Part shown: positions 662 through 17,000 of the stretch, one piece after another
Numbering within the stretch: position 1 is the stretch's first letter
How the letters are laid out: every line of letters begins with the position of its first letter
Assembly (NCBI RefSeq): GCF_034274695.1
Contig: NZ_CP128362.1
Location: 682,001-746,000 of the forward strand
Length of the DNA stretch: 64,000 bases
Reading direction: 5' to 3'
Origin: Chitinophaga sp. LS1
GTDB taxonomy: Bacteria > Bacteroidota > Bacteroidia > Chitinophagales > Chitinophagaceae
Translations under genes and position numbers: made by a program
The notes under the pieces: generated by a model
The model's database searches: none
Told to the model about the DNA's origin: nothing
The model's input: the letters and a program-made list of their open reading frames with translations, nothing else

Positions 662-740
662 GGTGTTAAAATTTGATTGAAAATGTCACACACTGAACAA
701 AACTACTCCCACACTATACCCTCCAACCTTCTTCACGATA

Positions 741-3350
741 TTAAAACTTGATTGAAAATGTCACACTTGGCAGTATTGGCAAAATACTAATCTCCTGCAG
801 GTACCGCTTCTCATTCTTCTTATCCGTCACGATAGAATACATAAACGGATTTGCATGATTATATGCATTAAACAAACTAATCGTCCAACTCCTGCTCCCC
901 CACGGCTTCTCCTTCGTATTCGTCGCACTCAGGTCCAATCTATGTATCACACTCGTCCTATACTGATTCCTATTACTCAACTGATCCAACACCGGCAAAG
1001 TACTTCCCCCATCATAAGGCGAAGAATCATTCACCCCTTCAAAACTCGCCACCGGCAATGTCAACGGCAACCCTGAATTAAAATGCCAGTTCGCCGCCAA
1101 CTCCCATCGCTTCCCTATCTGCTGCATCAACATTACCTTAATATCATGCCTCCCATCATAATTATAAGGATACGACTCCCCATTATTCACATTCGGAAAC
1201 CGCCTGTACGCCCACGAAAGCGTATACGCTATCCACCCTTTCAACTTCCCTTTCCGCTTCTCCAACATTACCTCCCCACCATAACTCGTTCCCGTACCCA
1301 CCTCTACATAATCATCCCAATTCTTACTCGCCGAGTTGAAAATCTTACCATTATCCTTATACTCAATCACATTCTTCATACTCTTATAATAAGCTTCCAG
1401 TGAAAGCGCATACCGCTGATCTTTCAATAACTTATTCACCCCAAAACTAAACTGCCTTGAAAACATCGGCCTTACCTTCCTGGTAGAAGGCACCCACAAA
1501 TCCATCGGCAAACTCGAATTCGATACACTCAATACATGCAGGTACTGGTTCATATGTGTATGCGCCAGCATCAGCGTCCAATGATGCGGTAACTGATACC
1601 TCGCCTGCAACCTCGGTTGCAAAGAAGAATAGAACTTTCCCGGCACCAGAAATTCTGAAGCATGTAAACCAATATTCACCCGCAATGCATCCGTAACCGT
1701 CCAGTCATCCTCCACATATAGCAACGCCTCTCCTCCCGTAGAAGTCGCCTGATTATAAGACGTATCCAACAAAGCTTTAGACTGAGAATAATCCTGAAAT
1801 GCCGATACCCCGGGATTAAATTTGTGGATAATTCCACCCACGCCAAATTTGAATATATGATTCGGAGAAGGAATAAATTCTACATCCGTTCTCAGTATCA
1901 GATCCTGCACCATTGAATAGTATTTCCCATACAAATGAATAGAATCAGCACTCTTCGAAGGCTCGTAATAATAGTTGTAATCGATATTGAAATAATACTG
2001 TGAATAATTCAATGTCGTATTCATAAACAACTTCGGATTAAAAACATGGTTCCATCTCAATGCACTCGTTTGATTCCCCCAACTCAATTTTGTAACAGTA
2101 TTCTCTTTAAAAGGATTCGAAGCAGTCGTACTATCCGCATTATTTTGCAAGGTCAATCCAAGGTTATCATTACCTATATAACTACTGAAGTAAAGCCGGT
2201 CCTTAGGAGAAAAAATATGATTTATTTTCAGATTCACATCATGAAAAACAAGGTTCACCTTTGTCCCTTTCTCCTTTTGAATTTCCTCATAAATATTATC
2301 CAGAAAAGGTTCTAAAATAGACCTGCGGGCAGAAACGACGAAGGAGGTCTTATCTTTTTTAATAGGTCCTTCCACCATTCCTCTTACAGCAATCACACCC
2401 ACAGAAGCCTCCCCATGATACTCTTTCATATCCCCATCTTTTGTGGAAATATCAATTACAGAAGAAAGCCTGCCTGCATAGCGTGCAGGAAATCCACCTT
2501 TATAAAAGTCTGCACTTTTCACAATATCCGGGTTAAACACAGAGAACAATCCAAACAGATGCGAAGAATTAAACACAGGCGAACCATCCAGCAAAATGAG
2601 GTTCTGGTCAGAACCACCCCCTCTTACACTGGTCACCGTACCTCCATCTACCCCACCGGATACACCTGGCAAAGTCGCAATCGCACGCATCACATCAGAC
2701 TCCCCCAATAACCTGGGCATCGCCTTTACATCTGCCGGTGAAACATGTAAGGCGCTCATCTGCCGGTTAGATTGCGCGGAGTCAGATACCGTGAACTCCT
2801 GCAGACTATTAGAAGGCTGCAATCCTATGATGACAAATGATTTTTTTGTAGAGGAAAGTCTTTCCGGGTTATAACCAATATAACTGACCCACAGATTACA
2901 GGAATCTTTTGGAATGGTCAGACTGAAAAACCCAAACTGGTTAGTAGTAGCTCCTGCCCGTTGACTGGGAGCATATACCGTAGCACCAATGAGTCTTTCA
3001 CCATTGCGCACGTCCTGCACATAACCACAGATAGTGACGTTGGGAGATTTTTTTACGGTCAGCACAATTTGTTCACCAATGCGGGCGAAGCGAATATCAA
3101 AAGGAGAAAAGAGTTCGTCAAGGGCTCTTTTCAGGGGTTTATCTTGAAAATTGACTGTTACCCGGCGGGAAAGGTCTACTATCTCCCTGCTATAGGAGAA
3201 GTGGATGCCGTACTGGGATTCCAGTTGTCCGCAGATAACGGAAAGTGGCTGATTATTTACGGTGACAGTGATCCGGGTATGCCAGTCCCAGCCTAACACC
3301 TGCAGGGGAATGAGTAACGTTCCCAGCAGCATTCTTCCGAGCAATGACAT
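741..3350 (-). CDS. TonB-dependent receptor with STN and carboxypeptidase-like domains
   Basis: An 869-residue outer-membrane receptor that would import a ligand using TonB energy. After a signal peptide, residues about 25-95 form an STN domain (TVNNQPLSVICGQLESQYG), the part that talks to a FecR-type anti-sigma factor. Residues about 105-190 form a CarboxypepD_reg-like domain (ICGYVQDVRNGERLIGATV). The plug follows (about 210-320, with GGVDGGTVTSVRGGGSDQN and LLDGSPVF), then a beta-barrel ending in SVTFSIKF. The STN domain and the FecR and sigma genes just upstream form a classic cell-surface signalling set. It differs from SusC proteins in having a DUF4249 partner rather than SusD. Confidence 0.9.
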   Translation of the reverse strand: MSLLGRMLLGTLLIPLQVLGWDWHTRITVTVNNQPLSVICGQLESQYGIHFSYSREIVDLSRRVTVNFQDKPLKRALDELFSPFDIRFARIGEQIVLTVKKSPNVTICGYVQDVRNGERLIGATVYAPSQRAGATTNQFGFFSLTIPKDSCNLWVSYIGYNPERLSSTKKSFVIIGLQPSNSLQEFTVSDSAQSNRQMSALHVSPADVKAMPRLLGESDVMRAIATLPGVSGGVDGGTVTSVRGGGSDQNLILLDGSPVFNSSHLFGLFSVFNPDIVKSADFYKGGFPARYAGRLSSVIDISTKDGDMKEYHGEASVGVIAVRGMVEGPIKKDKTSFVVSARRSILEPFLDNIYEEIQKEKGTKVNLVFHDVNLKINHIFSPKDRLYFSSYIGNDNLGLTLQNNADSTTASNPFKENTVTKLSWGNQTSALRWNHVFNPKLFMNTTLNYSQYYFNIDYNYYYEPSKSADSIHLYGKYYSMVQDLILRTDVEFIPSPNHIFKFGVGGIIHKFNPGVSAFQDYSQSKALLDTSYNQATSTGGEALLYVEDDWTVTDALRVNIGLHASEFLVPGKFYSSLQPRLQARYQLPHHWTLMLAHTHMNQYLHVLSVSNSSLPMDLWVPSTRKVRPMFSRQFSFGVNKLLKDQRYALSLEAYYKSMKNVIEYKDNGKIFNSASKNWDDYVEVGTGTSYGGEVMLEKRKGKLKGWIAYTLSWAYRRFPNVNNGESYPYNYDGRHDIKVMLMQQIGKRWELAANWHFNSGLPLTLPVASFEGVNDSSPYDGGSTLPVLDQLSNRNQYRTSVIHRLDLSATNTKEKPWGSRSWTISLFNAYNHANPFMYSIVTDKKNEKRYLQEISILPILPSVTFSIKF

Positions 3351-3438
3351 AGTGTGATTTAAAAAAATGGGCTTTCCAGCCTTCTTGATTGAAATACTTT
3401 CTGGACTTCTTTAATGTGGTGCTGTTCAATTGAATTAA

Positions 3439-4557
3439 TTAATCCTGCGGCCGCAACTCATAATCAGCACCCTTATTAATTACATTTGCATTCGTCGAAT
3501 AAGCGATGGCATCCAATACATTCTTCACTGGTTCTCCTGTATAAGTGCCGGTAACCGGCAACTCCAGCAACGCAGCATCTGCAGTTACGTTTATATGATA
3601 CAGCACATGAATGGTCTGCAACACCTCCCGCAAAGGAGTATCTTTAAAGACTACAGCACGGGTCTCAACATCACTAATATGTGCGCCAACCTGGAAATAC
3701 TGCTTACTGGTATCTTCCTGCAACAACATACCAGCAGTTAAAATTACACTATCCTGCTGGTGGGTTACTTTAACTTTCCCTGAATGAATGAAGACACGCA
3801 GCTGACTGCTGTTATCCACACTAAAACGGGTACCCAAAACAGTTATTGCCTGATTGCCCAGGTCAATAATAAACGGATGAGAGGCATCAGTAGTTACATC
3901 AAAGGTGGCTTTTCCTTTCAGGATAACTTTACGATCTTTTTTACCAAACCCAGGGGCCACCTGTAATTGTGCGGCGGGGTCCAGCTGGATGCTGGTGCCA
4001 TCATCCAGTTTCACCAGCTGGGCGCCGTTATAGTTGATTTGCCGTTCGTTTTGATGCATAATGTACCAAAGGCCTGCGCTGATCAGGAGGAAAACAGCAG
4101 CTGCAGCTGCCATCCACCTGGTAAGGGTTTTTGCGGGGGCTTTGGGTTGGGATGACTCATTATGGGTCATTCCATTATTTAACTCCAGCGAATCCGACCC
4201 ATCTACCCGACTACTGACACTTTCCTTACCATTTACGCCTTCTCCACCACTGACACTTTCCTCTCCGGTTACACCATTTTCGCCAATCATTCCCCGGTGG
4301 TCCATTCCTCCTCCCTTCCTTTGCAGCTCCATCCGCTCACTCAGCATCCTCCAGGCCGTCTCCGTATCCATTCCTCCTGCTACCGCCTGCTCTGGAGCTG
4401 TACTTAACAACTTATCCAGAGAAGCCAGCAATACCGGATGCTCAGAATTCGCCTGCAACCAGGTATTCACCCATCGCTGCTCAATGCTATCCGCTTCCTT
4501 CAGCAGATACTTGCATAGAAGTGCATATAATGCCTCATCTGGTGTAAGCATAGTCAT
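3439..4557 (-). CDS. FecR-family anti-sigma factor
   Basis: A 372-residue inner-membrane regulator. The N-terminal cytoplasmic part (ALLCKYLLKEADSIEQRWVNTWLQ) binds the sigma factor. One membrane helix lies near residues 150-167 (WMAAAAAVFLLISAGLWYI). The periplasmic FecR domain carries the usual sequence (VKLDDGTSIQLDPAAQLQV, KATFDVTTDASHPFIIDLG), and a C-terminal STN-like domain (LREVLQTIHVLYHINVTA) would contact the receptor. It sits between the sigma gene and the STN-bearing receptor. An odd point is a Gly/Ser/Glu-rich linker of about 45 residues before the membrane helix, with repeated GEESVSGGEG-like text. Confidence 0.92.
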   Translation of the reverse strand: MTMLTPDEALYALLCKYLLKEADSIEQRWVNTWLQANSEHPVLLASLDKLLSTAPEQAVAGGMDTETAWRMLSERMELQRKGGGMDHRGMIGENGVTGEESVSGGEGVNGKESVSSRVDGSDSLELNNGMTHNESSQPKAPAKTLTRWMAAAAAVFLLISAGLWYIMHQNERQINYNGAQLVKLDDGTSIQLDPAAQLQVAPGFGKKDRKVILKGKATFDVTTDASHPFIIDLGNQAITVLGTRFSVDNSSQLRVFIHSGKVKVTHQQDSVILTAGMLLQEDTSKQYFQVGAHISDVETRAVVFKDTPLREVLQTIHVLYHINVTADAALLELPVTGTYTGEPVKNVLDAIAYSTNANVINKGADYELRPQD

Positions 4558-4676
4558 GTACAGTTAGTAGATTTACAGATTTGCCGGGCAAAAATAACAT
4601 TTGCCGGTATGATAAATGACGCGTGCGGAAGGAGGACTCCCCTATTGTGGAAAATAAATTTTATCATAAAACCTGC

Positions 4677-5186
4677 CTATAAAAACAGGAACATCCCCAA
4701 ATAATCCCTCAATTCTTTATGCATATGCTTCAGCGCCTTCCCCATTTGATTCTCGACAGTCTTCACCGAAATATTCATCAGGGTCGCAATCTCCGCATAT
4801 TTCAACTGCTGCTGCCTGCTCAGTACAAACACTTCCCTACACCTCTCCGGTAACTTCTCCAACGCCTGCTGGTACAATTTTTCCAGCTCCCATGCCTGAG
4901 ACGACGTCACTGTTGGGGATAACTCATACCCTGAAGCCAGCTCCTTTTCAGACCTGACGGTATCTTTCCGCCAGTTACTAATCGCTGTATTCCGGATAGC
5001 AGCAAAAAGATAAGACTTCACCATTCCCGTAATATCTACACTCTCCCGTTTCTCCCAAAGCTTGAGAAAAACCTGCTGTACTACCTCTTCACCATCATGT
5101 ATATCTCCGGTATAATGCACGGCAAAAGCCACGCACTGTGCATGGTACTCCTTAAAAATGGCTTCTAATTTCTGGCGGTCTAGCAT
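4677..5186 (-). CDS. ECF-type RNA polymerase sigma-70 factor
   Basis: A 169-residue extracytoplasmic-function sigma factor. Region 2 is visible at FAVHYTGDIHDGEEVVQQVFLKLWEKRE and region 4 at LPERCREVFVLSRQQQLKYAEIATLMNISVKTVENQMGKAL, a helix-turn-helix. It lies upstream of a FecR gene and an STN receptor on the same strand, so it probably drives their transcription when the receptor is loaded. Its start codon at 5186 faces pyrD, giving a divergent promoter region of about 135 bases. Confidence 0.93.
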   Translation of the reverse strand: MLDRQKLEAIFKEYHAQCVAFAVHYTGDIHDGEEVVQQVFLKLWEKRESVDITGMVKSYLFAAIRNTAISNWRKDTVRSEKELASGYELSPTVTSSQAWELEKLYQQALEKLPERCREVFVLSRQQQLKYAEIATLMNISVKTVENQMGKALKHMHKELRDYLGMFLFL

Positions 5187-5285
5187 GATATCGGTTACAA
5201 AAATAGTATTCCCGAATGAAGATCAATGCAATTATAAATAATAAAAGTTTCATTGTGACAACAGTGAAATGACGAGGATCTCTCT

Positions 5286-5314
5286 TTTGCTTTTCTGGTT
5301 TAACATTATCTTTG
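5286..5314 (+). promoter_or_regulatory. pyrD promoter, Bacteroidota type
   Basis: TTTG at 5286-5289 and TATCTTTG at 5307-5314 fit the Bacteroidota consensus TTTG ... TAnnTTTG with 17 bases between. Transcription would start within a few bases of the ATG at 5321, so the message would be leaderless or nearly so. This also argues for the ATG at 5321 rather than the upstream TTG at 5312. Confidence 0.6.
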
Positions 5315-5320
5315 TGCCGC

Positions 5321-6343
5321 ATGTATAATTTAATCAAAAAGGTGTTTTTCCGTTTTCCGCCGGAAAAAATCCACTATCAGGTAATGAAAGGCCTGCAGAT
5401 ATTGCATGGCGTTCCAATGGGCAAGCAGATCCTCCATTCATTTTGTATGTCTAAAAAGACCGGGCTGGAACGGACTTTATGGGGACTGACCTTTAAAAAT
5501 CCCGTTGGCTTGGCGGCAGGGTTTGACAAGGATGCGAAGTATACGGATGAATTGGCTAGTCTGGGCTTTGGATTTGTAGAGATTGGGACCGTAACCCCGG
5601 TGGCTCAGCCGGGTAATGACCAACCTCGTTTGTTCCGTTTGCCTACAGATAAGGCGCTGATCAACAGGATGGGATTTAATAATGGCGGCGCCGCTCCGGC
5701 AGCAAAACGACTGCTGAAGCGGAAGTCAGATATTATTATTGGGGGGAATATTGGGAAGAACAAAATCACGCCAAATGAAGAAGCGATTAGTGATTATGAA
5801 AAGTGCTTTCATGCGCTTTTTGATGTGGTAGACTACTTTGTAGTCAACGTCAGCTCTCCCAATACGCCTAACTTAAGGGCTTTGCAGGAAAAAGAACCGC
5901 TGAAACAGTTATTGCATCATTTGCAGATGCTGAATGAGCAGAAGGCGAAGCCAAAGCCGATTTTATTAAAAATAGCACCGGATCTGACGGATAGTCAGCT
6001 GGATGATATTATAGAGATTGTTACTGAAACAAAACTGGCCGGGCTGGTAGCTACGAATACGACGATTTCAAGAGAAGGATTACAGACTCCTCAGCATGAG
6101 GTGGAGGCGATTGGTGCGGGTGGTTTGAGTGGTTTACCTGTGAAGGAAAAGGCAACGGAGGTGATCCGGTATATTTCTCAGAAGACGAAGGGGAGTATTC
6201 CGATTATTGCGGTTGGTGGGATCTTTACGGCGGCAGATGCGCAGGAGAAGTTGGATGCGGGGGCGAGTTTGGTGCAGGTGTATACAGGGTTTATTTATGA
6301 GGGACCGACGATAGCGAAGAAGATATGTGATGGGTTGAAGTAA
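5321..6343 (+). CDS. pyrD: dihydroorotate dehydrogenase (quinone)
   Basis: A 340-residue class 2 dihydroorotate dehydrogenase, an FMN enzyme that oxidises dihydroorotate to orotate in pyrimidine synthesis and passes electrons to membrane quinone. The N-terminal amphipathic helix ([19 protein letters not shown]) is the membrane-binding element of class 2 enzymes. Family signatures are seen: [58 protein letters not shown] with the catalytic Ser region, LLKIAPDL, and [26 protein letters not shown]. The ATG at 5321 is preferred. It stands alone, divergent from the sigma gene, and converges on an abi gene. Confidence 0.96.
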
Positions 6344-6351
6344 AAAGATTG

Positions 6352-6381
6352 AAAAAGGCTGCTTTAGAGCGGCCTTTTTTA
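6352..6381. terminator. bidirectional terminator between pyrD and abi gene
   Basis: An imperfect stem with AAAAAGGC on the left and GCCTTTTTT on the right, around a short loop. The T run on either strand lets it end both pyrD (+) and the convergent Abi gene (-). Confidence 0.7.
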
Positions 6382-6384
6382 TTG

Positions 6385-7287
6385 TCATAAATCTTCTTCA
6401 TCCCAATTCTCTGGAAATCCCATACGTTCCAGATCAATTCCTCTATATTTTACTAACAACTCCATTAGTTTGTAACTAAAATTATTCCCGGGGCTGGCAG
6501 TGTGTAATAAATAGCGAACGATACATAATTGGTAGTATAACCTTTCACTCTCTACACTTCCAGTTGGAGGTATATTATTAATCCAGCGTAATTTAACATG
6601 TCGTATTTCTCTCGGGAGGAACGAAAATATTCTGTAGCAAATCAATGAGTGATGGGCACAATAATTTCTAAGCATTGATACGACCTGTATCCATGACTGG
6701 AACCATTTGTCTTTAGAAATCCCGTATACATTAACTATTATCTTCTTTTCTTTAACATCACTTCGGATATTTCTATAAATCTTGGATAATGTACCGAAAG
6801 AAAGTATGTGCAATGTTTTCCAGGCTGGTGGATGTTCATATTTGGTATTTCTTCTGTCATGCTGCTTTATGAAGTCTTCATCAGATCGTTCAAGCTCACG
6901 ATTAATCGTTTCGATTACTTCATTCACTCTGTCTTCACTAAAAAATACAGACTTATCTGCAAACCAGTTTGAGCCATAAGAGGGGCACATCATATTGATC
7001 AGGATAGCACGAAAAGACACCTCTATACGCTCAATAGCGTCCATTATTAATAGTCTGAGTTCACGATCAAAATTATAGAGTTCAATAACATGATCGAATG
7101 TAGTACCAGTCATAAATGTATGACTGACTTGGTTTTTCTGTAAATATTTCCAGTAACCTGATAATCTGTAAAATCCTACATGGGTTAAATAATGAATTGA
7201 CTCATCAGAACTACTAATTATTAAACCGCGTTGTTGAAGGATTTTTATTTGGTCTGGTAACGTGAATGGTCTTTCAATGGAATTCAT
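6385..7287 (-). CDS. Abi_2 (AbiD/AbiF-type) HEPN abortive-infection protein, copy 1
   Basis: A 300-residue member of the Abi_2 family (AbiD/AbiF), proteins linked to abortive phage defence. Two helical blocks are typical: FDRELRLLIMDAIERIEVSFR (73-93) and the later LRNYCAHHS. In the second, R207 and H212/H213 give the RX4-6H motif of HEPN ribonucleases, so RNA cleavage is the likely activity. The paralogue at 9153-10064 is roughly three quarters identical by eye. The start codon (7285-7287) lies directly after the T run of a GC-rich hairpin (7301-7340) with its own promoter, an arrangement fitting RNA-antitoxin control of a toxin. No Shine-Dalgarno sequence is seen. Family and HEPN call are firm; the toxin role is inference. 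Confidence 0.88.
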   Translation of the reverse strand: MNSIERPFTLPDQIKILQQRGLIISSSDESIHYLTHVGFYRLSGYWKYLQKNQVSHTFMTGTTFDHVIELYNFDRELRLLIMDAIERIEVSFRAILINMMCPSYGSNWFADKSVFFSEDRVNEVIETINRELERSDEDFIKQHDRRNTKYEHPPAWKTLHILSFGTLSKIYRNIRSDVKEKKIIVNVYGISKDKWFQSWIQVVSMLRNYCAHHSLICYRIFSFLPREIRHVKLRWINNIPPTGSVESERLYYQLCIVRYLLHTASPGNNFSYKLMELLVKYRGIDLERMGFPENWDEEDL

Positions 7288-7289
7288 AT

Positions 7290-7346
7290 AAAAAAAATGC
7301 CCCGCCTCGGGTGCGCTGATCTGACGGGAAGCGTGGCGGGTTCTGT
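7290..7346 (-). ncRNA. abi-associated hairpin RNA, copy 1 (in front of intact abi copy 1)
   Basis: On the minus strand: -7 box TATATTTG at 7359-7352, with TTTG 21 bases further upstream. Then comes a hairpin whose outer stem CCCGCC/GGCGGG is at 7335-7340 and 7301-7306, with an inner CGCT/AGCG stem. A run of eight T (7297-7290) follows. The Abi start codon comes 3 bases later. Predicted RNA about 55-60 bases; ends are estimates. This copy differs from most others at the base next to the inner stem. Confidence 0.7.
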
Positions 7347-7511
7347 TAACACAAATATACTTTCATTTATTCAAAAAAAACAAATTTTTAGCTACCTAAA
7401 AAAGCATTTTCCATTAATTGATTCCTACATTATTTGATCGTTATTATTATTCTCATCTATCAAAAAACGAACCTTATTAACTCCTCAATTTTCCTCAATT
7501 ACACCAAACTA

Positions 7512-7614
7512 AATAACGATTCGTTTCTTTCGAATCATTTATTATTTAACCGCGCTATCTAAGGATTCTAATTTGATGAAGTTATAAAGTGAATGGCCTT
7601 CCAGTGGAGTTCAT
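7512..7614 (-). pseudogene. decayed abi 5' fragment R2
   Basis: Starting at 7614 it reads MNSTGRPFTL then stop. Continuing in the same frame gives LHQIRILR, stop, RG, stop, IINDSKETNRYL, which lines up with the intact protein's PDQIKILQQRGLIISSSDE and so on to about codon 34. Its own hairpin RNA lies immediately upstream (7617-7673). Confidence 0.75.
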
Positions 7615-7616
7615 AT

Positions 7617-7673
7617 AAAAAAAATGCCCCGCCTCTGGTACGCTGATCTAACGGAAAGCGCGGCGGGGACTGT
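7617..7673 (-). ncRNA. abi-associated hairpin RNA, copy 2
   Basis: Promoter box TATATTTG at 7686-7679; stem arms at 7662-7668 and 7627-7633 (seven G/C pairs, one more than the other copies); T run 7624-7617. The loop has two changes relative to the majority. It fronts only the decayed fragment R2. The gap to the upstream TTTG is 22 rather than 21. Confidence 0.65.
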
Positions 7674-7840
7674 TAGTACAAATATACTTTCATTTATTCA
7701 AAAAAAAACAAATTTTCAGCTTTCTAAAAAAAGCATTTTCCATTAATTGATTGCTACATTATTTGATTGCTATTATTATCCTCATCTATACAAAAAACGA
7801 ACCTTATTAACTCCTCAATTTTCTTCAATCACAATAAACT

Positions 7841-7944
7841 AAATAACGATTCGTTTCTTTCGAATCATTTATTATTTAACCAAGCTATCTAAGGATTCTA
7901 ATTTGATGAAGTTATAACGGGAATGATCGTTCAATGGAATTCAT
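7841..7944 (-). pseudogene. decayed abi 5' fragment R3
   Basis: From the ATG at 7944 it reads MNSIERSFPL then stop, followed in frame by a degenerate match to the Abi N-terminus. The start codon and its distance from the hairpin are preserved, although the coding part is dead. Confidence 0.75.
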
Positions 7945-7946
7945 AT

Positions 7947-8003
7947 AAAAAAAATGCCCCGCCTGTGGTACGCTGATCTGACGGGAAGCGCGGCGGGTAC
8001 TGT
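7947..8003 (-). ncRNA. abi-associated hairpin RNA, copy 3
   Basis: Promoter box TATATTTG at 8016-8009 with TTTG 21 bases upstream; stem arms 7992-7997 and 7958-7963; T run 7954-7947. The promoter spacer sequence differs completely from copies 1, 2 and 4, but its length is the same, which points to selection on promoter function. Confidence 0.68.
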
Positions 8004-8168
8004 TATCACAAATATACTATAATCAATAAGACAAAAACAAATTTTCACCTATCTAAAAAAGCATTTTCCATTAATTGATTGCTACATTATTTGATTGCTA
8101 TTATTATCCTCATCTATACAAAAAACGAACCTTATTAACTCCTCAATTTTCTTCAATCACAACAAACT

Positions 8169-8272
8169 AAATAACGATTCGTTTCTTACGAATCATTTAT
8201 TAGTTAACCGCGCTATCTAAGGATTCTAATTTGCTGAAGTTATAACGTGAATGGTCGTTCAATGGAATTCAT
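8169..8272 (-). pseudogene. decayed abi 5' fragment R4
   Basis: From the ATG at 8272 it reads MNSIERPFTL, identical to the first ten residues of intact copy 1, then a stop and a degenerate match. An inverted repeat GATTCGT/ACGAATC lies near its far end. Confidence 0.75.
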
Positions 8273-8274
8273 AT

Positions 8275-8332
8275 AAAAAAAAATGTCCCGCCTCTGGTAC
8301 GCTGATCTGACGGGAAGCGCGGCGGGTTCTGT
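8275..8332 (-). ncRNA. abi-associated hairpin RNA, copy 4
   Basis: Promoter box TATATTTG at 8345-8338 with TTTG 21 bases upstream; stem arms 8321-8326 and 8287-8292; T run of nine (8283-8275). The base just outside the stem is A instead of G on the RNA strand. Confidence 0.68.
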
Positions 8333-8496
8333 TACCACAAATATACTTTTATTTATTCAAAAAAAACAAATTTTCACCTATCTAAAAAAGCATTTTTCAT
8401 CAATTGATTCCTACATTATTTGATCGTTATTATTATTCTCATCTATCAAAAAACGAACCTTATTAACTCCTCAATTTTCCTCAATTACACCAAACT

Positions 8497-8600
8497 AAAT
8501 AACGATTCGTTTCTTTCGAATCATTTATTAGTTAACCACGCTATCTAAGGATTCTAATTTGATGAAGTTATAACGGGAATGATCGTTCAATGGAATTCAT
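8497..8600 (-). pseudogene. decayed abi 5' fragment R5
   Basis: From the ATG at 8600 it reads MNSIERSFPL then stop, the same mini-ORF as R3, followed by a degenerate Abi match. Confidence 0.75.
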
Positions 8601-8602
8601 AT

Positions 8603-8659
8603 AAAAAAAATGCCCCGCCTCTGGTACGCTGATCTGACGAGAAGCGCGGCGGGTACTGT
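8603..8659 (-). ncRNA. abi-associated hairpin RNA, copy 5
   Basis: Promoter box TATATTTG at 8672-8665 with TTTG 21 bases upstream; stem arms 8648-8653 and 8614-8619; T run 8610-8603. It shares with copies 6 and 7 a loop change (GACGAGAAG instead of GACGGGAAG on the + strand). Confidence 0.68.
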
Positions 8660-8823
8660 TATTACAAATATACTATAATCAATAAGACAAAAACAAATTT
8701 TTAGCTATCTAAAAAAGCATTTTCCATTAATTGATTCCTACATTATTTGATCGCTATTATTATACTCATCTATACAAAAAACCAACCTTATTAACTCCTC
8801 AATTTTCATCAATTACACAAATT

Positions 8824-8928
8824 TAAATAACGATTCGTTTCTTACGAATCATTTATTATTTAACCGCGCTATCTAAGGATTCTAATTTGCTGAAGTTATA
8901 ACGTGAATGGTCGTTCAATGGAATTCAT
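8824..8928 (-). pseudogene. decayed abi 5' fragment R6
   Basis: From the ATG at 8928 it reads MNSIERPFTL then stop, as in R4, followed by a degenerate match to the Abi N-terminus. Confidence 0.75.
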
Positions 8929-8930
8929 AT

Positions 8931-8987
8931 AAAAAAAATGTCCCGCCTGTGGTACGCTGATCTGACGAGAAGCGCGGCGGGTTCTGT
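8931..8987 (-). ncRNA. abi-associated hairpin RNA, copy 6
   Basis: Promoter box TATATTTG at 9000-8993 with TTTG 21 bases upstream; stem arms 8976-8981 and 8942-8947; T run 8938-8931. It is the last unit of the tandem array; the AT-rich stretch 9001-9152 behind it leads to the end of the second Abi gene. Confidence 0.68.
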
Positions 8988-9152
8988 TATCACAAATATA
9001 CTATAATCAATAAGACAAAAACAAATTTTTAGCTACCTAAAAAATCAATTTTTAATAATTGATTCCAGTATTATTCAATCGATATTTTCCTTCACATTTT
9101 ACCAAAACGAGACTCTCATCAAACCATCTACAATCAACTATTATAAACTTCA

Positions 9153-10064
9153 TCATTGCCACAAATCTTCCTCATCCCAGTTCTCCAAAAAACCCATCTT
9201 CTCTAAATCAATCCCTCTATACTTTACCAACAATTCCATCAACCTATAACTAAAATCATTCCCCGGACTCGCTGTTTGTAATAAATACCTTACAATGCAT
9301 ATCTGATAATATAATTGTTCACTCACTACACTACCTGCAGGAGGAATATTTTTAATCCAGGGTAATTTGACTTGTCTTATTTCTCTTGGAAGGAATGAAA
9401 AAGGTCTGTAACAAATCAATGAATGATGCGCACAATAATTCCTAAGGATAGATACCACCTGCATCCATGACTGTAACCATCTTTCCTGAGGAAGCCCATA
9501 AACCTTAGCAATTATCCTCTTCTCCTTAATATCATCCCTAATATTCCTATATATCTTGGACAATGTACCAAAGGAAAGGATAGGCAAAGTTTTCCAGGCT
9601 GGAGGATGCTCAAATCCAGTTTTCTTTTTATCATGCTGTTTTACAAATTCTTCATCTGATCGCTCAAGCTCCCTGTCAATTTTCTCAATTGCATCATTCA
9701 GCCTTGCTTCATTAAAAAAGATACGCTTATCTGTAAACCAGTTTGAGCCATACACAGGGCACATCATGTTAATCATTATAGCTCGAAACGAAACTTCTAT
9801 CCGTTCCATAGCGTCCAGCAACAATAACCTAAGTTCACGATCAAAATTATATAGTTCAATAACATGATTGAAAGTGGCTCCAGAGATGAATGCATTACGA
9901 ACACTATCCTTCTGGAGGAACTGCCAATAATCTGCCAATCTATAATATCCTACATGCGCTAAATAATGATTAGCTTCATCACTATCATCTATTTCTAAGC
10001 CACGTTGTTGAAGGATTTTGATCTGGTCAGGTAATAATGGGAATTGTTTTTCAATGGAATTCAT
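9153..10064 (-). CDS. Abi_2 (AbiD/AbiF-type) HEPN abortive-infection protein, copy 2
   Basis: A 303-residue paralogue of the protein at 6385-7287, with the same blocks: FDRELRLLLLDAMERIEVSFR and LRNYCAHHS, where the Arg and His residues give the HEPN RX4-6H motif. The start is set at 10064 (MNSIEKQFPLL), matching the paralogue. A longer frame from 10172 would translate the hairpin and promoter and is rejected. Hairpin copy 7 with its T run ends 3 bases before the ATG. Differences from copy 1 lie mainly in residues 20-60 and 105-150. These may set RNA-partner preference, but that is speculation. Confidence 0.88.
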   Translation of the reverse strand: MNSIEKQFPLLPDQIKILQQRGLEIDDSDEANHYLAHVGYYRLADYWQFLQKDSVRNAFISGATFNHVIELYNFDRELRLLLLDAMERIEVSFRAIMINMMCPVYGSNWFTDKRIFFNEARLNDAIEKIDRELERSDEEFVKQHDKKKTGFEHPPAWKTLPILSFGTLSKIYRNIRDDIKEKRIIAKVYGLPQERWLQSWMQVVSILRNYCAHHSLICYRPFSFLPREIRQVKLPWIKNIPPAGSVVSEQLYYQICIVRYLLQTASPGNDFSYRLMELLVKYRGIDLEKMGFLENWDEEDLWQ

Positions 10065-10066
10065 AT

Positions 10067-10123
10067 AAAAAAAATGCCCCGCCTGTGGTACGCTGATCTG
10101 ACGAGAAGCGCGGCGGGTTCTGT
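10067..10123 (-). ncRNA. abi-associated hairpin RNA, copy 7 (in front of intact abi copy 2)
   Basis: Promoter box TATATTTG at 10136-10129 with TTTG 21 bases upstream; stem arms 10112-10117 and 10078-10083; T run 10074-10067. Nearly identical to copy 6 within the hairpin although the flanks differ. Confidence 0.7.
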
Positions 10124-10172
10124 TAACACAAATATACACCCATTCTTTAGACAAAAACAAATTTTCCCCCAT

Positions 10173-10225
10173 AAAAAAAGATATTCTTCAATTTTTAATC
10201 AAAAAATTAAAAATTGAAGAATATC
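10173..10225 (-). terminator. strong terminator behind the GH127 gene
   Basis: Perfect 20-bp inverted repeat (10180-10199 and 10206-10225) with a 6-base loop, followed on the minus strand by seven T (10179-10173). It separates the sugar-utilisation operon from the Abi module promoter. Confidence 0.85.
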
Positions 10226-10249
10226 TCAATCATTTCAATCACCCAATTA

Positions 10250-12247
10250 TCACTTCAAACTCACCTCCTTCACCCTCTCCAAAAACCATACACTCATCTC
10301 CCCCTCTCCCCTATTCGCCCAACTATAATAAGGTATCAACGTCACCCCCTCTTTTACCGTCTCCACCTCCTGCTCCTCCCGCTCTACATTCACCCTCTTC
10401 CCCTCTCCCTTCAACACCACTACCCCATTCAACAACCCCTTCTCCATCACCACATCCCACTTTCTCCCCAACTGAAACAAATTACTCACCTTCCCCCCAT
10501 TGTCCTTCCACTCCGCACAATACACCAACGGCCCCCGCTGGATCGCCACCTTCCCCACATCATCCACCAACCTGCTATCCGCCAACACCTCCTTCACCTC
10601 CATCGGCAAATTCATCGTCACCACATCCCCCTTCTTCCACTGCCTGCTCACCACCGCATACCCCTTCTCCATCTTATATGATACCGGCTGCCCATTTACA
10701 TTTATCACTACAGCAGCAAAAGCAGTATCCCTAAACCGATACAACCCATCCGGTATCGCCTCTCCCTTCGCCCATCCCGGTACCCGCACATACAAATCAA
10801 ATGCACTCGCCTTTACCGGATCTATTTTTAATACAATATTCCCCTCCCACGGATAATTATGCTGCTGCGTAACCACCACATCCGCATTATTCACTTTCAA
10901 TTTCGCTGTACTATTTATAAACAAATTCACATACACCCTCTTCCCCTCCTGCGCATACATATAACCCGGCACTGATGGCAAAAACCGCACTAAATTCGTC
11001 GGACAACATGAACACTCAAACCACCCTGAACGACCCGGCTCTAAACTACCATGCTTCACCCCATCCGTCACCTGCATCGCATTCGTATAAAAGAACGACT
11101 TCCCATCCAACCCCAATCCTGATATCAACCCATTATACATCACCTTCTCCAACAAATCTATATACTTCGCATCCCCATGCAATAAAAACATCCGCTCATT
11201 CCAAAATGCATTCCCTATCGCCGCACACGTCTCATTATAAGCCGTCGCATTCGGCAACTCATAATCCTCTCCAAACCGCTCCCCTTCCGGCACCGCACCT
11301 ATCCCTCCCTGTACATATATCTTCTTCCCCGTCATATTATTCCATATCCTGTCTATCGCCGCCAAATAAGCCGTATCCCCATCTATCGCCGCTATATCTG
11401 CCATCGCTGCATACAAATACATCGCCCTTACCGCATGCCCTTCCGCCTCATCCTGCGCCGTCACCGGCTTATCATCCTGCCAATACTTCCCATTCTGCCA
11501 CTCATTCTTACTCCTCTTATCATACGCCCGCTTCCCTCTCTCATCTATAAAAAACTTCGCCAGCGCCAGATAATCTTTCCGCCCCGTAATACGATATAAT
11601 TTCACTAACCCCATCTCTACTACCTCATGCCCAGGCGCCACCCCTCTCTTCCCTGGCCCAAATGTTTGCACCAACAAATCCGCATTCTTCAACGCGATAT
11701 CCAAAAAATTCTTCTTCCCCGTCGCCAGATAATGCGCACTCGCCGCCTCAAATAAATGCCCTGAATTATACAACTCATGACTCAACACATGCTCATTCAC
11801 CCACCGCTCTGGCCCCGCCCACTCTGGTGGATGCAAAGGATCAATCGTCCTCGCCGTATACAAATACCCATCCGGCTCCTGCGCCTTCGCCACTATCGCT
11901 ATCAATGAATCTACATACCGATCCATTTGCTTATCCGGCGTCACTGCCATCGAAAACGAAGCCCCTTCTATCGTCTTGTAAATATCCGTATCATCAAATG
12001 TAAACTTCGTACAAAACTTCCCCGAATGCGCTGCCGCCATCTCAAAATTCTTTACCCTGCCGGTATTCTCACACCGCGCAAACGACGCCGGTATCGTTAC
12101 GGTATGATTCACCTGAATACGCGGCAACCAAAAGTTGTCCGTCAATTTTACCGCTGTAAAATTGACTGCACGGATCGGATAATCCGCTTGTTGGGCTGAT
12201 AAGGTAACTGAATAGAACAGTGACAATGATAAAAATAATCGCTTCAT
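10250..12247 (-). CDS. GH127 family beta-L-arabinofuranosidase
   Basis: A 665-residue secreted glycoside hydrolase (signal peptide MKRLFLSLSLFYSVTLSAQ). GH127 enzymes such as bifidobacterial HypBA1 release beta-L-arabinofuranose using a zinc-bound cysteine nucleophile. The matching residues are visible: E323 in EGERF, E339 and C341 in YNETCAAIG, and C414/C415 in FECSCCPTN. It lies downstream of SusC and SusD on the same strand, so it is probably the catabolic enzyme of that locus, acting on arabinose-containing plant glycans. Other GH127 members have different sugar specificities, so the substrate is not certain. The 3' two thirds of the coding strand are strongly G-rich and C-poor. Confidence 0.9.
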   Translation of the reverse strand: MKRLFLSLSLFYSVTLSAQQADYPIRAVNFTAVKLTDNFWLPRIQVNHTVTIPASFARCENTGRVKNFEMAAAHSGKFCTKFTFDDTDIYKTIEGASFSMAVTPDKQMDRYVDSLIAIVAKAQEPDGYLYTARTIDPLHPPEWAGPERWVNEHVLSHELYNSGHLFEAASAHYLATGKKNFLDIALKNADLLVQTFGPGKRGVAPGHEVVEMGLVKLYRITGRKDYLALAKFFIDERGKRAYDKRSKNEWQNGKYWQDDKPVTAQDEAEGHAVRAMYLYAAMADIAAIDGDTAYLAAIDRIWNNMTGKKIYVQGGIGAVPEGERFGEDYELPNATAYNETCAAIGNAFWNERMFLLHGDAKYIDLLEKVMYNGLISGLGLDGKSFFYTNAMQVTDGVKHGSLEPGRSGWFECSCCPTNLVRFLPSVPGYMYAQEGKRVYVNLFINSTAKLKVNNADVVVTQQHNYPWEGNIVLKIDPVKASAFDLYVRVPGWAKGEAIPDGLYRFRDTAFAAVVINVNGQPVSYKMEKGYAVVSRQWKKGDVVTMNLPMEVKEVLADSRLVDDVGKVAIQRGPLVYCAEWKDNGGKVSNLFQLGRKWDVVMEKGLLNGVVVLKGEGKRVNVEREEQEVETVKEGVTLIPYYSWANRGEGEMSVWFLERVKEVSLK

Positions 12248-12444
12248 AATCGTGCATGTTTATTATCAAAAAGTGGAAAAGGATATCGCCCTCTCCCCAA
12301 AGACCTATCTCAAAAAATAATTCTTCCAAAAAAATAAAAAAAACGCGCTGTAAGTCTACAAAAATCCATCAACACCCTGCAAAATCTTTCCAATACATCA
12401 CTAAAAAGCATTCAGTAAACTCACAAAAAAGCATCCACTCAATC

Positions 12445-14055
12445 CTAGTAACCCGCATTCTGCTTCAAATTCGCATTCTTATTCAACTCCGTCCTCGGTA
12501 TCGGATACAAACTCCTATAATCCCCATTCGGACTATGCGAAAACCAACTCTTCTTCGTAAACACCCCAAACCTGATCATATCCTGCCTCCTTCTCCCCTC
12601 CTGACTAAACTCCCATCCCAACTCATCCAAAAACCGCCCATACACCACATCACTCCCCCCCTGAAAACTTGAATCCAAATGATTCCTCAACCCATAATCA
12701 TACTCACTCCCCTTCAACAAATCTGCCCCCGTCACCGTCGCCTTTGATGGATTCGTTGAAAATGACCGCTGCCTTACCGTCGTCACTAACGTCGCCGCAT
12801 CTGCTGTATTTCCCGTCCGTAACAAACTCTCCGCCTTCATCATCAACACATCCGCATACCTGAACAACGGCCAGTCATTACTCAACTGCACCTGCGCCTT
12901 CTGCTTTATCTCAAACTTCCCCAATCTATACCCATGTATCTCCTCCGATGCATCTATCCCCGGTACCGCATTGATGTAATTCAATGGCTGCCCTGAATAA
13001 GCCCCCATTGTACAATTCAACACCTCCCCACCCGCACTGTACTGCTGCCCCTTTATCCAGTTATCCCTGAGCCGGTCATCATCCACATCATACGTCTTTA
13101 TAAACTGTGGTATCGCACATATCCCTCCCCACGGCGTTGACTTCAAATTATACGTCGCCTGGTTCGCCGGCTGCAATGTCTCCATATGTATATCAAATGC
13201 ATTCCAGTTCGTCACATACGTCTCATCGAAAGGTAATGCAAAAATGATCTCTGGTGAGTTCTCATTCTCTGTAATGAACACATTCTTCTGCGCTGCCTCC
13301 AATGCAAACCCTACATGAGAATCTATCAACGTATCACACTGCTTTATACACGCTGCCCACGCCGGCACACCCGTATACACCTCCGCATTCAGGTACATCT
13401 TTGCCAACAACGCATGCGCCGCCCACTGATTGAATTTCCCATACGTCGTTCCATCATTCTTCGCACTCAACAATGGCAGATAGGTATTGATCTCATTCAC
13501 GATAAAATCATATACCTCTTTCCGTGTGTTCTGTGTAGGCAGATATCCTGACGGCACATTGAACTCCGTTACTAACGGTACATTCCCATAAAAATCACAC
13601 AACACATAATAATATGATGCCCGCAATACATGCAACTCCGCCAGCGTGGCATGCTTGGCCGTTGAATCTGATATAGGTATGATCCCTGACTCTAACTGAT
13701 AGATCACCCTGTTACAATTCGTAATCCCCGCATATGCACGCCCCCATGTCTGCACCACTATATCATCATCCGCTGTCCAGGTATGCTCATGTATACGCAG
13801 ATAAACACCCCCATCTACCCAACCATTCGGCCTCGCCGGTATCACCACTTCATCTCCTGATACTTCCTGCGCACGGAACAATCCATTCCAATCATTCATC
13901 ACATACCGCCAGTTTACATACGCTGCCCCCACCAGACTCGCCAAATCTTCTGTAGTCGGATCAAACTGACTATCAATGATCTTATTATAACTGGTATCTT
14001 TTAGTTTGGTACAGGCCATTGCAAACAGCACTGCTATCCATATGTATCTTTTCAT
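12445..14055 (-). CDS. SusD/RagB-family glycan-binding lipoprotein
   Basis: A 536-residue surface lipoprotein (signal MKRYIWIAVLFAMAC). SusD proteins cap the SusC barrel and capture oligosaccharides. The typical N-terminus (LKDTSYNKIIDSQFDPTTEDLASLVGAAY), an internal helical region (TLAELHVLRASYYYVLCDFYGNVPLV), ADVLMMKAESLLRTGN, and the C-terminal signature LNKNANLKQNAGY are all present. It follows its SusC partner by 10 bases and precedes the GH127 gene. Confidence 0.93.
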   Translation of the reverse strand: MKRYIWIAVLFAMACTKLKDTSYNKIIDSQFDPTTEDLASLVGAAYVNWRYVMNDWNGLFRAQEVSGDEVVIPARPNGWVDGGVYLRIHEHTWTADDDIVVQTWGRAYAGITNCNRVIYQLESGIIPISDSTAKHATLAELHVLRASYYYVLCDFYGNVPLVTEFNVPSGYLPTQNTRKEVYDFIVNEINTYLPLLSAKNDGTTYGKFNQWAAHALLAKMYLNAEVYTGVPAWAACIKQCDTLIDSHVGFALEAAQKNVFITENENSPEIIFALPFDETYVTNWNAFDIHMETLQPANQATYNLKSTPWGGICAIPQFIKTYDVDDDRLRDNWIKGQQYSAGGEVLNCTMGAYSGQPLNYINAVPGIDASEEIHGYRLGKFEIKQKAQVQLSNDWPLFRYADVLMMKAESLLRTGNTADAATLVTTVRQRSFSTNPSKATVTGADLLKGSEYDYGLRNHLDSSFQGGSDVVYGRFLDELGWEFSQEGRRRQDMIRFGVFTKKSWFSHSPNGDYRSLYPIPRTELNKNANLKQNAGY

Positions 14056-14065
14056 TGCTTTGGTT

Positions 14066-17000
14066 TTAAAAATTCAGATTCACACCTACAGTAAATGTTC
14101 TTACAGAAGGATACTTATCCCTGTCATCCACGCCCGGCGCCAGTCCCAGCCTGTTCACTTCCGGATCTATCCCTTTGTAACCTGTGAGTGTCAGCGTGTT
14201 CAGCGTGGATACATATACCCTCGCCCCATGGATGTACTTACTCTGAATATGATTGAAATTATAGCCTAAAGTGATGTTATCTATCTTCCAGAAATCTCCG
14301 TTTTCCACATAGTTACTATTGAACTCCAATGGCATATCCGTACTCAATACTGCCTTGCCCATTACCTTGTCATACGCTGATTTCAGACGATTGTACTGCT
14401 GCAACCCCGTGTTCTCATAATACATGCGCTGAAAGTTCAGTATCTGGTACTTGAACGCCCCACGCATGGTCACACTCAGATCAAAACTCTTATAGCGGAA
14501 TGTATTATTCCACCCTCCATAATACCTTGGCAAACCATTCCCCAATACCCGCTTATCTTCAAATGCATGTTGATATGAAGCATAATCTACCGGCTTCCCA
14601 TCACGACCTTCATAGATCCACTTTCCATCATTTGATATGTCTACTACTTTAAAACCATAGAAGTCGCCGATATTACGACCCACTCTCACAATATTGGTAA
14701 ATGTCTGAATCGGCTCTCCCGTACTACCCGTGGTGATGTAATCCACACTCGCCTGGTACAACTCATTGGAAAGTGTGATCAGTTTGTTCGTATTGGTGGA
14801 GAACATCAGACTCGTACTCCATTCAAAATCTTTCGTCTTTACCGGAATGATATTCACCATTACTTCCAGCCCTTTGTTTTCCATCTTACCCACATTCGCA
14901 CGGGTGCTGCTATACAAGTTAGGAGGACTAGGCACCGCATAATCATACAGCAAACCATTGATCCTCCTGATATAATAATCCACATTCCCACTCACCCGGC
15001 CATTGAACAATGTATAGTCTACTCCAAAGTTGGATTCATGCTTCTCTTCCCAACGCAGTTTATCATTCGGATTCTGTGAAGGACCCAGTGTCTGTATCCA
15101 TACCCCATTGTTATACACATAATCGCCATAACTCAGGATACCCACACCCAGAAACAGATCTGTAGGCTGTGTACCCGTCACTCCATAACCCGCACGAAGC
15201 TTCAGGTCTGTGAGCCAGCTGATGCCTTTCATAAATGGCTCATTGCTTACTCTCCAACCAAATGATACCGCCGGGAAATTACCCCATGGCTGCTTCGTTC
15301 CATACAACTGACTCGCCGCCTCATGTCTCAGTGAAGCCAGCAATAAATATTTATCATCATAACTATAAGTCGCACGACCAAAGAAACCTATCAGGTTGGT
15401 TTCTGACTTCTCACTAAATTGCACAGCCAGCCCTTGTTTCAGGGCATACCCTATACCAATGTCATTATATGAAAAACGATCTGTTGGAAAATCCCAGTTC
15501 TGCATATAAGAATTCCGGTAGTCAGTTTCCTGGTAACTATACCCACCCATCACACTGAATTTATGCTTGCCGATATTCTTATTATACTGCGCCGTTAGTT
15601 CCATCAATCGCTGCACATTCTGTAATGAACCTACTGAAGCATATCCATTCCTGCCATCACGCAAGGTTGATATGTGTTGCTTGGTCTCTGAATAACCACG
15701 CTCTTCATTGTAACGGGTATAAGAAAACAACGCTGACAGTTTCAATCCCTCTATTGGCAACAACGTGATGGTACTGTTCATACGCGTATTCTGTGAAGTG
15801 TTTTCTCCACTGCTCTCATACAATCTTGACAAAGGATTTTCATAGTTGAACAAACCTGTCTGTTCAAACCACTTACCTGTTGAGTCGTATATTGGAGATG
15901 TCGGATTCCTTATCAATGCCTGTCTGTAGGTATACCCGTTAAAACTAATGCCATCACCTGTAGTGGTGAACTTATTATTTGAATTCAATAAACCTACATT
16001 GATGCGCAGCTTATCGTCCAGCATGCTATGATTGATGTCCACTCTACCTGTAAAAGTATTGTTGTCAGACTTTTTCATAATCCCTTCCAATGAACGATAG
16101 TTCACATTCGCGAGGTAATTCGTCTTGCTGTTACCACCACGGAATGTCAGGTTATGCACATGCGTGATCGGGGTCTGCGTAATCGCTTTCTGCCAGTCCG
16201 TATTGGACCCCAGATCCCATGATTTATCACGCGTACCATCTGCTATTTGTTGACGGTAATCTGCAGCTGTCAACATATCCATTTTACGGGCCACCGTCTG
16301 TGTACCTACATAACCACTATAATCTACGGTGTTGGTATACGCACCACCTGGCCTTCTGGTGGTTACAATGATTACACCGTTCGTACCACGTGTACCATAT
16401 ATCGCCGCTGCTGAACCATCTTTCAGTACATCCATAGATTCTATATCTTCCGGCGCCACTGTTTTCAGATCACCAGGTATACCATCGATCAGTATAAGCG
16501 GACTACTATTCGCACCTAACAATGTGGTATTACCTCTTAATAAGATCTGCGTACCACTGGTAGGATCGCCACTTGGTGCAGATACAGAAAGACCGGCTAC
16601 TTTACCTTGTAATAACTGTCCCGCATCGAGTACATTTCCCTTTACAAAACTTTCAGATTTCACAGTAGCAACGGAACTGGTCAGATCGCCTTTACGCTGA
16701 CTACCATACCCAATTACCACTACATCCTGCAGGGAGTTTTCACTCAGTGCCAATCTGATCGTGAGCTGACTGGTACCTTTCACCGGAACTTCCTGTGTTT
16801 TATAACCTACATAACTGATGACCAGTGTATCATTGTCAGTAGAACTATTCAAAGAGAAAACACCTTTCTCATTAGAGATCGTACCCGCATGAGATCCTTT
16901 AACAGAGATACTCACACCTGGCAACGGCTCTCCCTTTTCATCTGTCACCACACCAGAAATAGGCTTTACAAAAACAGCAGGAATAGATTTTTTAATAATG

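Follow-up and report, generated by a model that had tools for sequence, protein, structure and literature searches.

Two AbiF-type toxin genes and a tandem array of putative toxin-less antitoxin RNA genes in Chitinophaga sp. LS1

The window analysed here is a stretch of 64,000 nucleotides of Chitinophaga sp. LS1 (contig NZ_CP128362.1, positions 682,001 to 746,000), which carries, entirely on its minus strand between positions 6385 and 10136, a locus made up of two Abi_2 HEPN genes, here called abiA and abiB, and seven promoter-hairpin units. Upstream of each of the two genes stand a predicted promoter of the Bacteroidota type and a GC-rich hairpin that closes with a T run, followed by the ATG; five further promoter-hairpin units, without an intact toxin gene, lie between them. 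A preliminary description of this DNA had reported this arrangement, and it is borne out by the sequence, the open reading frames and the folds; its tandem array of 328 bp is likewise found on measurement, the units following each other in five steps of 327-330 bp and one step of 1136 bp that spans the second toxin gene. The order of the parts also supports the proposed likeness to a type III RNA-antitoxin layout, the promoter and the terminator being predictions. The features of the locus are the following:

6385-7287, minus strand: abiA, Abi_2/AbiF-type HEPN toxin (300 aa; RNYCAHH, R207-H213)
7292-7347, minus strand: abiF-type leader RNA of abiA, class beta, hairpin and T run
7352-7384, minus strand: predicted promoter of the abiA leader, with TATATTTG at 7352-7359
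7495-7614, minus strand: toxin 5' coding relic, stop at codon 11 (DNA alignment; beyond the reach of tblastn at 1e-5)
7619-7674, minus strand: RNA-only unit, gamma-like RNA
7679-7712, minus strand: predicted promoter of that RNA-only unit
7825-7944, minus strand: toxin 5' coding relic (DNA alignment; beyond the reach of tblastn at 1e-5)
7949-8004, minus strand: RNA-only unit
8009-8041, minus strand: predicted promoter of that RNA-only unit
8153-8272, minus strand: toxin 5' coding relic (alignment, and tblastn with the abiA N-terminus, 58%, E 3.3e-6)
8278-8333, minus strand: RNA-only unit
8338-8370, minus strand: predicted promoter of that RNA-only unit
8481-8600, minus strand: toxin 5' coding relic (DNA alignment; beyond the reach of tblastn at 1e-5)
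8605-8660, minus strand: RNA-only unit
8665-8697, minus strand: predicted promoter of that RNA-only unit
8809-8928, minus strand: toxin 5' coding relic (alignment, and tblastn, 63%, E 2.6e-6; genome search, 55%, E 4.6e-4)
8933-8988, minus strand: RNA-only unit
8993-9025, minus strand: predicted promoter of that RNA-only unit
9153-10064, minus strand: abiB, Abi_2/AbiF-type HEPN toxin (303 aa; 76% identical to abiA)
10069-10124, minus strand: abiF-type leader RNA of abiB, class alpha
10129-10161, minus strand: predicted promoter of the abiB leader

The start of abiB was set at the ATG at 10064, which aligns with the start of abiA; the listed open reading frame begins at 10172, upstream of both RNA and promoter. 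Open reading frames were listed for positions 1-16000 of the window, and the protein scans covered the two Abi products. Both proteins match Pfam Abi_2 (abiA, E 8.5e-53 and 179.8 bits; abiB, E 1.4e-51 and 175.8 bits; curated cut-off 25.6), and PADLOC calls both of them AbiD (E 5.2e-80 for abiA). The HEPN motif RNxxxH is intact in each, as RNYCAHH; translation confirms the catalytic residues R207, H212 and H213 that had been named for the first toxin, and those of abiB are R208, H213 and H214. Among the other Abi proteins that were translated, 11 of 12 have RNxCAHH and the twelfth RNIAAHH. A single chain matched among the sequences of the PDB, 8vz6_A, with E 5.9e-57 for abiA (query 6-299, nearly end to end) and 2.5e-53 for abiB, and AbiB has matches in 79 of 50,697 phage records, including phiC2 ORF 37 at 30% identity (8e-29). 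The Abi_2, 8vz6_A and phiC2 ORF 37 matches support the suggested relation to AbiF, and by sequence both proteins are AbiF/AbiD-type toxins, a known kind, with toxicity as a prediction.

All seven RNAs fold as hairpins of 59-60 nt ending in T8-T9. In six of them a 6-bp lower stem is joined directly to a 5-bp upper stem with an asymmetric bulge, and the leader RNA of abiA forms a weaker variant of this two-stem fold. At the curated Rfam threshold there is no match to the abiF family RF03085 in the window; at a lax threshold the abiA leader (7300-7340) matches the full model, positions 1-37, asymmetric bulge included. Of the suggested comparison with the Rfam abiF RNA, the full-length match holds, and the score of 21.6 bits stays below the threshold of 37, so that the hairpin is, judged by its sequence, a divergent relative of abiF RNA and not a strict member of RF03085. 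Looking for the same hairpin beside Abi_2 genes of other Chitinophagaceae had been suggested, and a similar one was recognised by eye upstream of 26 of the 32 Abi genes outside the window (it is missing in the first gene of L010, where there is a run of N, and in L011, L013, L014, L015 and L041), a reading that left out duplicates and the fragments lacking a toxin start (L040, L042 and L043). RF03085 scores above its threshold at the leader position in 3 of 36 related loci (3 of 20 in one set and 0 of 16 in another, the latter including seven candidate orphan loci). An RNA model, R1, was trained on 28 leader RNAs, including two of the window. In the R1 alignment of 39 matches, 96.2% of the cells are paired (0 of 500 shuffles), two-sided changes occur in six of the nine pairs (a count reached by 3 of 500 shuffles), and for four measures none of 500 shuffles reached the observed value; the model itself guided this alignment, in which 28 rows are its training sequences and which holds all window units and one chance match on the reverse strand. 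The full-model match, the relatives that pass the threshold and the strong covariation together support the relation to the Rfam abiF RNA.

The box TATATTTG occurs in the 64-kb window seven times on the minus strand, once per unit, and twice on the plus strand. The pattern TTTG-N17-22-TAnnTTTG, which we take to be the Bacteroidota promoter consensus, has nine minus-strand matches in the window, of which seven are the units. Directly upstream of the abiB promoter, at 10179-10226, lies a perfect 21-bp inverted repeat followed, on the minus strand, by a T run, which is probably the terminator of the gene at 10250-12247. A search of the whole genome (8.67 Mb) at E 0.001 found no further copy of a unit or toxin and two Abi_2 matches in total; all seven unit matches fall inside this locus, which rules out a mobile unit elsewhere in the genome. 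A CRISPR-like array is also ruled out, the 328-bp units being alike along their entire length and without unique spacers.

The alignment of the five additional units with the toxin leaders continues past the ATG for about 120 bp of 5' toxin sequence, in which codon 11 is a stop. A tblastn search with the abiA N-terminus reached two of the five, and the remaining three are tied to those two by DNA alignment; in [Flexibacter] sp. ATCC 35208, which carries a related array, up to three units were reached likewise. Judged from these alignments, each RNA-only unit is a toxin module minus nearly all of its toxin gene, and the simplest reading of their origin is a deletion of the middle of a toxin followed by tandem copying. 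The preliminary description had seen an array of RNA-only units; the seven units are there, and the five without a toxin are not simply added RNA genes, as it had supposed, since they are remnants of toxin modules. Most units have an ATG and about ten codons, and a leader peptide was considered and ruled out, two ATCC 35208 units having lost the ATG and the relic drifting. A second hairpin within the relic (AATGATTCG...CGAATCGTT, at 7510-7550 of the window and in the same place in most RNA-only units) is not claimed: its arms seemed conserved by eye, gave 7 changes against 13.7 expected (P 0.09) with one unit lacking it, and 20 against 19.8 expected (P 0.57) with an extra unit.

Three genomes carry the array, two of them strains of a single species and the third from another species, with five, four and three RNA-only units. 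[Flexibacter] sp. ATCC 35208 (locus L010; the matching assembly, G343, is marked as the same species) has, at the same site, two toxins and four RNA-only units. The second species, of the same genus (G337), has three RNA-only units between toxins that are 97% identical to AbiA and 82% to AbiB, with flanking genes 95.6% and 96.4% identical in DNA to those of this genome. Elsewhere in G337 (L206) there is a third, distant Abi_2 gene of 31-35% identity, and about 75 nt upstream of it R1 matches weakly (25.8 bits). In another genome, G346, an intact RNA-only unit lies 573 bp upstream of a toxin leader whose lower stem differs by compensatory changes.

Conservation of the 12 RNA-only units of the three array genomes (5 + 4 + 3) was assessed as parsimony changes per site. 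There were no substitutions in the 18 stem positions and none in the 8-nt -7 box, and the corresponding values were 0.72 in unpaired RNA, 0.63 in the remainder of the promoter, 0.36 from the T run to the ATG, 0.80 in the relics, and 0.66 and 0.61 in the spacers. The unpaired RNA had 23 changes in 32 nt against 24.3 expected, and the whole RNA, by parsimony, 23 against 36.5 expected (P 0.026). In 100,000 draws of equally many spacer and relic sites, the count was never zero for stems and box together, and when the mask of stems and box was slid along the unit, 1 of 266 positions was at or below the observed value. The units had been found with a pattern containing CCCGCC, and the stems were therefore retested without that word, giving no changes against 9.2 expected (P 0.001). 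When one unit was used as a BLAST query, no decayed unit that had been passed over turned up in any of the three arrays. The decayed unit K2 of a third species, G339, was excluded from the main test; its inclusion brings the stems to 2 changes (19.9 expected) and the box to 1 (8.8 expected). These P values assume independent sites and a single tree for units that recombine, and serve as guides only. Because stems and -7 box are unchanged in the 12 units while loops, relics and spacers drift, the RNA-only units appear to be kept genes rather than debris, as far as such counts can tell.

Several observations weigh against this conclusion. The -7 box tested alone gives a modest P of 0.014, the units are not independent because they recombine, and the loops, where the protein may make contact, change as fast as the spacers. 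Measured by mean pairwise difference, the RNA as a whole (0.085) is no more conserved than the relic (0.088); the signal appeared only after stems and loops were split, a split chosen after the data had been seen. In G339, which has one toxin and flanking genes about 86% identical to those here, the lone leftover RNA is decaying, its stem broken and its T run gone. Tandem arrays were seen only in this clade, in 3 of 79 genus genomes, and among samples of 294 family and 395 class genomes only in the present genome, by searches that score few candidates per genome and lose weak RNAs. Together with the plain toxin relics, the varying copy number (five, four and three) and the RNA variants that have moved between leader and array positions, the last three points could be explained if the units were inert debris: unequal crossing-over would have multiplied a unit with a deleted toxin, and gene conversion with the two functional leaders would have kept the copies alike. 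Conversion would, however, copy loops along with stems, yet stems and box show no changes and unpaired RNA changes at the spacer rate; this, and the absence of changes in the stems outside the search word, makes us regard inert debris as unlikely.

GC-rich stems ending in a T run, conserved where loops are not, are also what would be seen if the hairpins were retained to stop transcription or to insulate the toxin genes from each other, instead of as antitoxins. Each unit nevertheless keeps its own promoter, with a -7 box invariant in 12 of 12 units, and a terminator needs no promoter; moreover, the abiA leader fits the abiF model down to the asymmetric bulge, and we hold such a purely terminating role to be very improbable.

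Solitary RNAs of this type are not confined to the array. In the family sample R1 found matches in 29 of 294 genomes, 28 of which had a single match; in the genus 19 of 79 genomes matched, and in the class sample 26 of 395, where no further cluster was tighter than about 6 kb; these searches scored 20, 74 and 14 candidates per genome, respectively, under strict filters that lose weak RNAs, and the counts are lower bounds (the second RNA of G165, locus L045, at 29.9 bits, is absent from the family search). No Abi_2 match was found in 7 of the 29 RNA-bearing family genomes (G009, G055, G114, G214, G222, G233 and G268, of which G214 and G233 have weak RNA matches) or in 3 of the 19 RNA-bearing genus genomes (G298, G300 and G314). 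In G298 and G300 inspection by eye shows a broken T run behind the hairpin. Behind the RNA of G314 lies a toxin-start relic of 21 codons that contains a stop; 12 of its residues match an Abi start (E 4.7e-4), and this relic is an independent parallel to the array units. Loci of solitary abiF-like RNAs in genomes lacking an Abi_2 match are L067, L070, L071, L081, L085, L115, L117 and L118, with a short toxin-start relic behind the RNA of L118. In G006, G336 and G342 the toxin gene beside the R1-matched RNA is broken; at L132 (G336) an Abi gene with an in-frame internal deletion stands next to an RNA of 52 bits (R1), possibly an intermediate on the way to an RNA-only unit. By the usual logic an antitoxin may outlast its toxin but not the other way round, and the recurrent loss of toxin with retention of RNA fits this.

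The same solitary RNAs, lacking a detected Abi_2 gene in their genomes, might instead suggest that the RNAs act on something else, for example as small RNAs on mRNAs or on phage factors. Against such a role, the related RCd22 RNA of Clostridioides difficile has AbiF as its main protein partner, and when candidate mRNAs were examined in gel shifts, a single weak RNA-RNA complex was the only one reported in the passages seen (PMC12373285); other targets seem scarcely probable to us.

Toxin alleles at this site differ by 12-25% between strains of one species while the flanking genes are nearly identical, and for this reason the locus (6385-10206) looks like a replacement hot spot: compared with ATCC 35208 (L010/L136), the flanking genes of this genome have DNA identities of 98.8% and 99.8%, and the toxins share 87.5% of residues on the abiB side and 75.0% on the abiA side. 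Three kinds of leader RNA, named after the RNAs had been seen, differ from one another at 4-7 of 42 compared positions: alpha precedes abiB, beta abiA, and gamma the second toxin of ATCC 35208. For the first toxin of that strain, part of the leader falls in a run of N and no class was assigned; 14 N stand there (L010:4956-4969) where this genome has about 110 bp (10097-10206). The abiB-type leaders of G337 and G339 have a one-base deletion relative to alpha. All three kinds occur in each array genome, gamma being represented here only by a gamma-like RNA with three differences. A class-beta RNA-only unit of ATCC 35208 equals the abiA leader of this genome over 42 positions, and the ATCC 35208 toxins are 75-77% identical to AbiA; likewise, the leader of the second ATCC 35208 toxin recurs unchanged as a class-gamma RNA-only unit in G337, whose Abi_2 proteins are 75%, 74% and 31% identical to that toxin. 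Since all RNA kinds recur in the three array genomes while the toxins held differ, the array might be an RNA immunity bank, holding antitoxins for toxin alleles absent here and present in sister strains, with phage RNAs acting as counter-defence. This pattern was noticed post hoc in three genomes, and we offer the idea as a doubtful though specific one.

RNAs of this kind also occur in viral contigs. An exact-pattern search of IMG/VR yielded 36 stretches (L170-L205), with 29 distinct RNAs among the 34 that were fully readable, and R1 matches all 36. An Abi profile search found a toxin in two stretches and none visible in 34, two of the stretches (L193 and L196) ending at the RNA so that the downstream DNA is not visible; a whole-record search for Abi_2 in the first 16 of the 36 viral records gave 0 of 16. 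In 13 of the 36 stretches a same-strand tRNA gene lies within 14 nt of the RNA (tRNA-Thr upstream in nine, tRNA-Met upstream in two, tRNA-Arg upstream in one and tRNA-Thr downstream in one). L181 has two different abiF-like RNAs in tandem (4826-4877 and 4898-4945) just after tRNA-Met, some 1.3 kb before a large terminase gene. Among 35 matches from the 34 stretches without a visible toxin, 99.6% of cells pair and 47 cells show two-sided changes (0 of 500 shuffles for both); the search pattern covers neither side of four lower-stem pairs. Of the proteins of tRNA-adjacent contigs, 9 of 13 were assigned to PHROGs families, as were 6 of 7 from three others; many of these families are without known function, and among the named ones are terminase, portal, virion structural and DNA polymerase exonuclease families. 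One phage-contig RNA had no match in the 50,697 annotated phage records, and the pattern for this clade's own alpha RNA was found in none of the viral contigs. From these contigs it looks as though phages carry the antitoxin RNA without its toxin. The preliminary description had proposed that the array might raise antitoxin dose, serve toxins of different specificity or decoy phage factors, and each of these may apply; since phage contigs contain abiF-like RNAs with no toxin detected, a decoy is more plausibly the phage's weapon against the toxin. Passages of a cyanophage paper mention an abiF small RNA and three phage entries in Rfam, with no link to AbiF neutralisation in those passages.

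The closest described system is AbiF-RCd22 of C. difficile, in which, according to sections of that report, phage phiC2 carries RCd22 upstream of an abiF homologue and the RNA acts in trans by binding the AbiF protein (PMC12373285). It has the same Abi_2 family (30% identity to phiC2 ORF 37) and the same order of promoter, RNA, terminator and toxin, and its RNA has RF03085 motifs and neutralises in cis and in trans; as described there, one RNA with two motifs is made from one promoter, whereas here there is one motif per RNA, which doubles as terminator, and two toxins are accompanied by five RNA-only units with separate predicted promoters. The structure 8VZ6 is, according to passages of a review, the PbAbiF-AbiFr RNA complex, an HEPN dimer with one RNA per monomer (PMC12737573); its protein is homologous nearly end to end to those described here, and it involves a single RNA and a single toxin, with no array in those passages. 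The type III toxin-antitoxin systems (ToxIN, AbiQ, TenpIN, CptIN) also place an RNA antitoxin upstream of the toxin with a terminator that sets the ratio, but, in the accounts available, their toxin and antitoxin structures are unlike AbiF and RCd22, and their antitoxin repeats lie within one transcript (cut by the toxin in ToxIN) rather than in separately promoted genes. In the excerpted account of phiTE, its pseudo-ToxI is an antitoxin-like RNA that stands away from the toxin and blocks an RNA-controlled toxin (PMC3475682); it is phage-borne and directed at ToxN, whereas the RNA-only units here are host-borne, and the abiF-like RNAs of phage contigs would, by analogy, be the AbiF counterpart of pseudo-ToxI. 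A CRISPR array with Cas13 likewise sets repeated structured RNA units beside HEPN proteins, and differs in that the units here have no unique spacers and each has its own predicted promoter and terminator. The relation of AbiF-type proteins to Cas13 ancestry that the preliminary description had mentioned agrees with the review passages, where AbiF is reported as the Cas13 ancestor and its RNA as the forerunner of CRISPR RNA (PMC12737573).

Taken together, we consider it likely that this is a two-toxin AbiF-type RNA toxin-antitoxin locus with retained, trans-acting RNA-only antitoxin genes that serve dose, sister-strain alleles or both. Synthesis of each HEPN ribonuclease toxin would depend on RNA polymerase passing the terminator hairpin of the leader RNA, and the terminated RNA of about 59 nt would be the abiF antitoxin that binds and silences the protein. 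One module would have lost nearly all of its toxin gene, and the leftover promoter-hairpin block would have been copied in tandem and reshuffled by recombination. The five RNA-only units would then have been retained as working antitoxin genes acting in trans, which may raise the RNA over the toxin, keep variants matching sister-strain toxin alleles absent here, or both. We infer transcription and termination at the locus, binding and neutralisation of the toxins, and a benefit in dose or immunity.

A search of the openly licensed PMC literature found no title on arrays of toxin-less abiF RNAs and none on phage abiF RNAs as AbiF decoys. Both the array and the phage reading can be called new only provisionally, because subscription papers, such as a Cell 2025 paper on AbiF, lay outside this search. 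The parts, toxins and abiF-type RNA, are already known; what is provisionally new is an RNA-only array of seemingly conserved, putative antitoxin genes left by toxin deletion. The seemingly preserved toxin-less copies suggest that antidote RNAs can be worth keeping alone, and the locus shows one concrete way in which RNA partners separate from their effector, AbiF RNAs having been multiplied and kept while toxins were lost. An RNA immunity bank, if true, would be an RNA analogue of orphan immunity genes, and the locus makes testable both antitoxin-RNA immunity to foreign toxin alleles and the use of such RNAs by phages as decoys.

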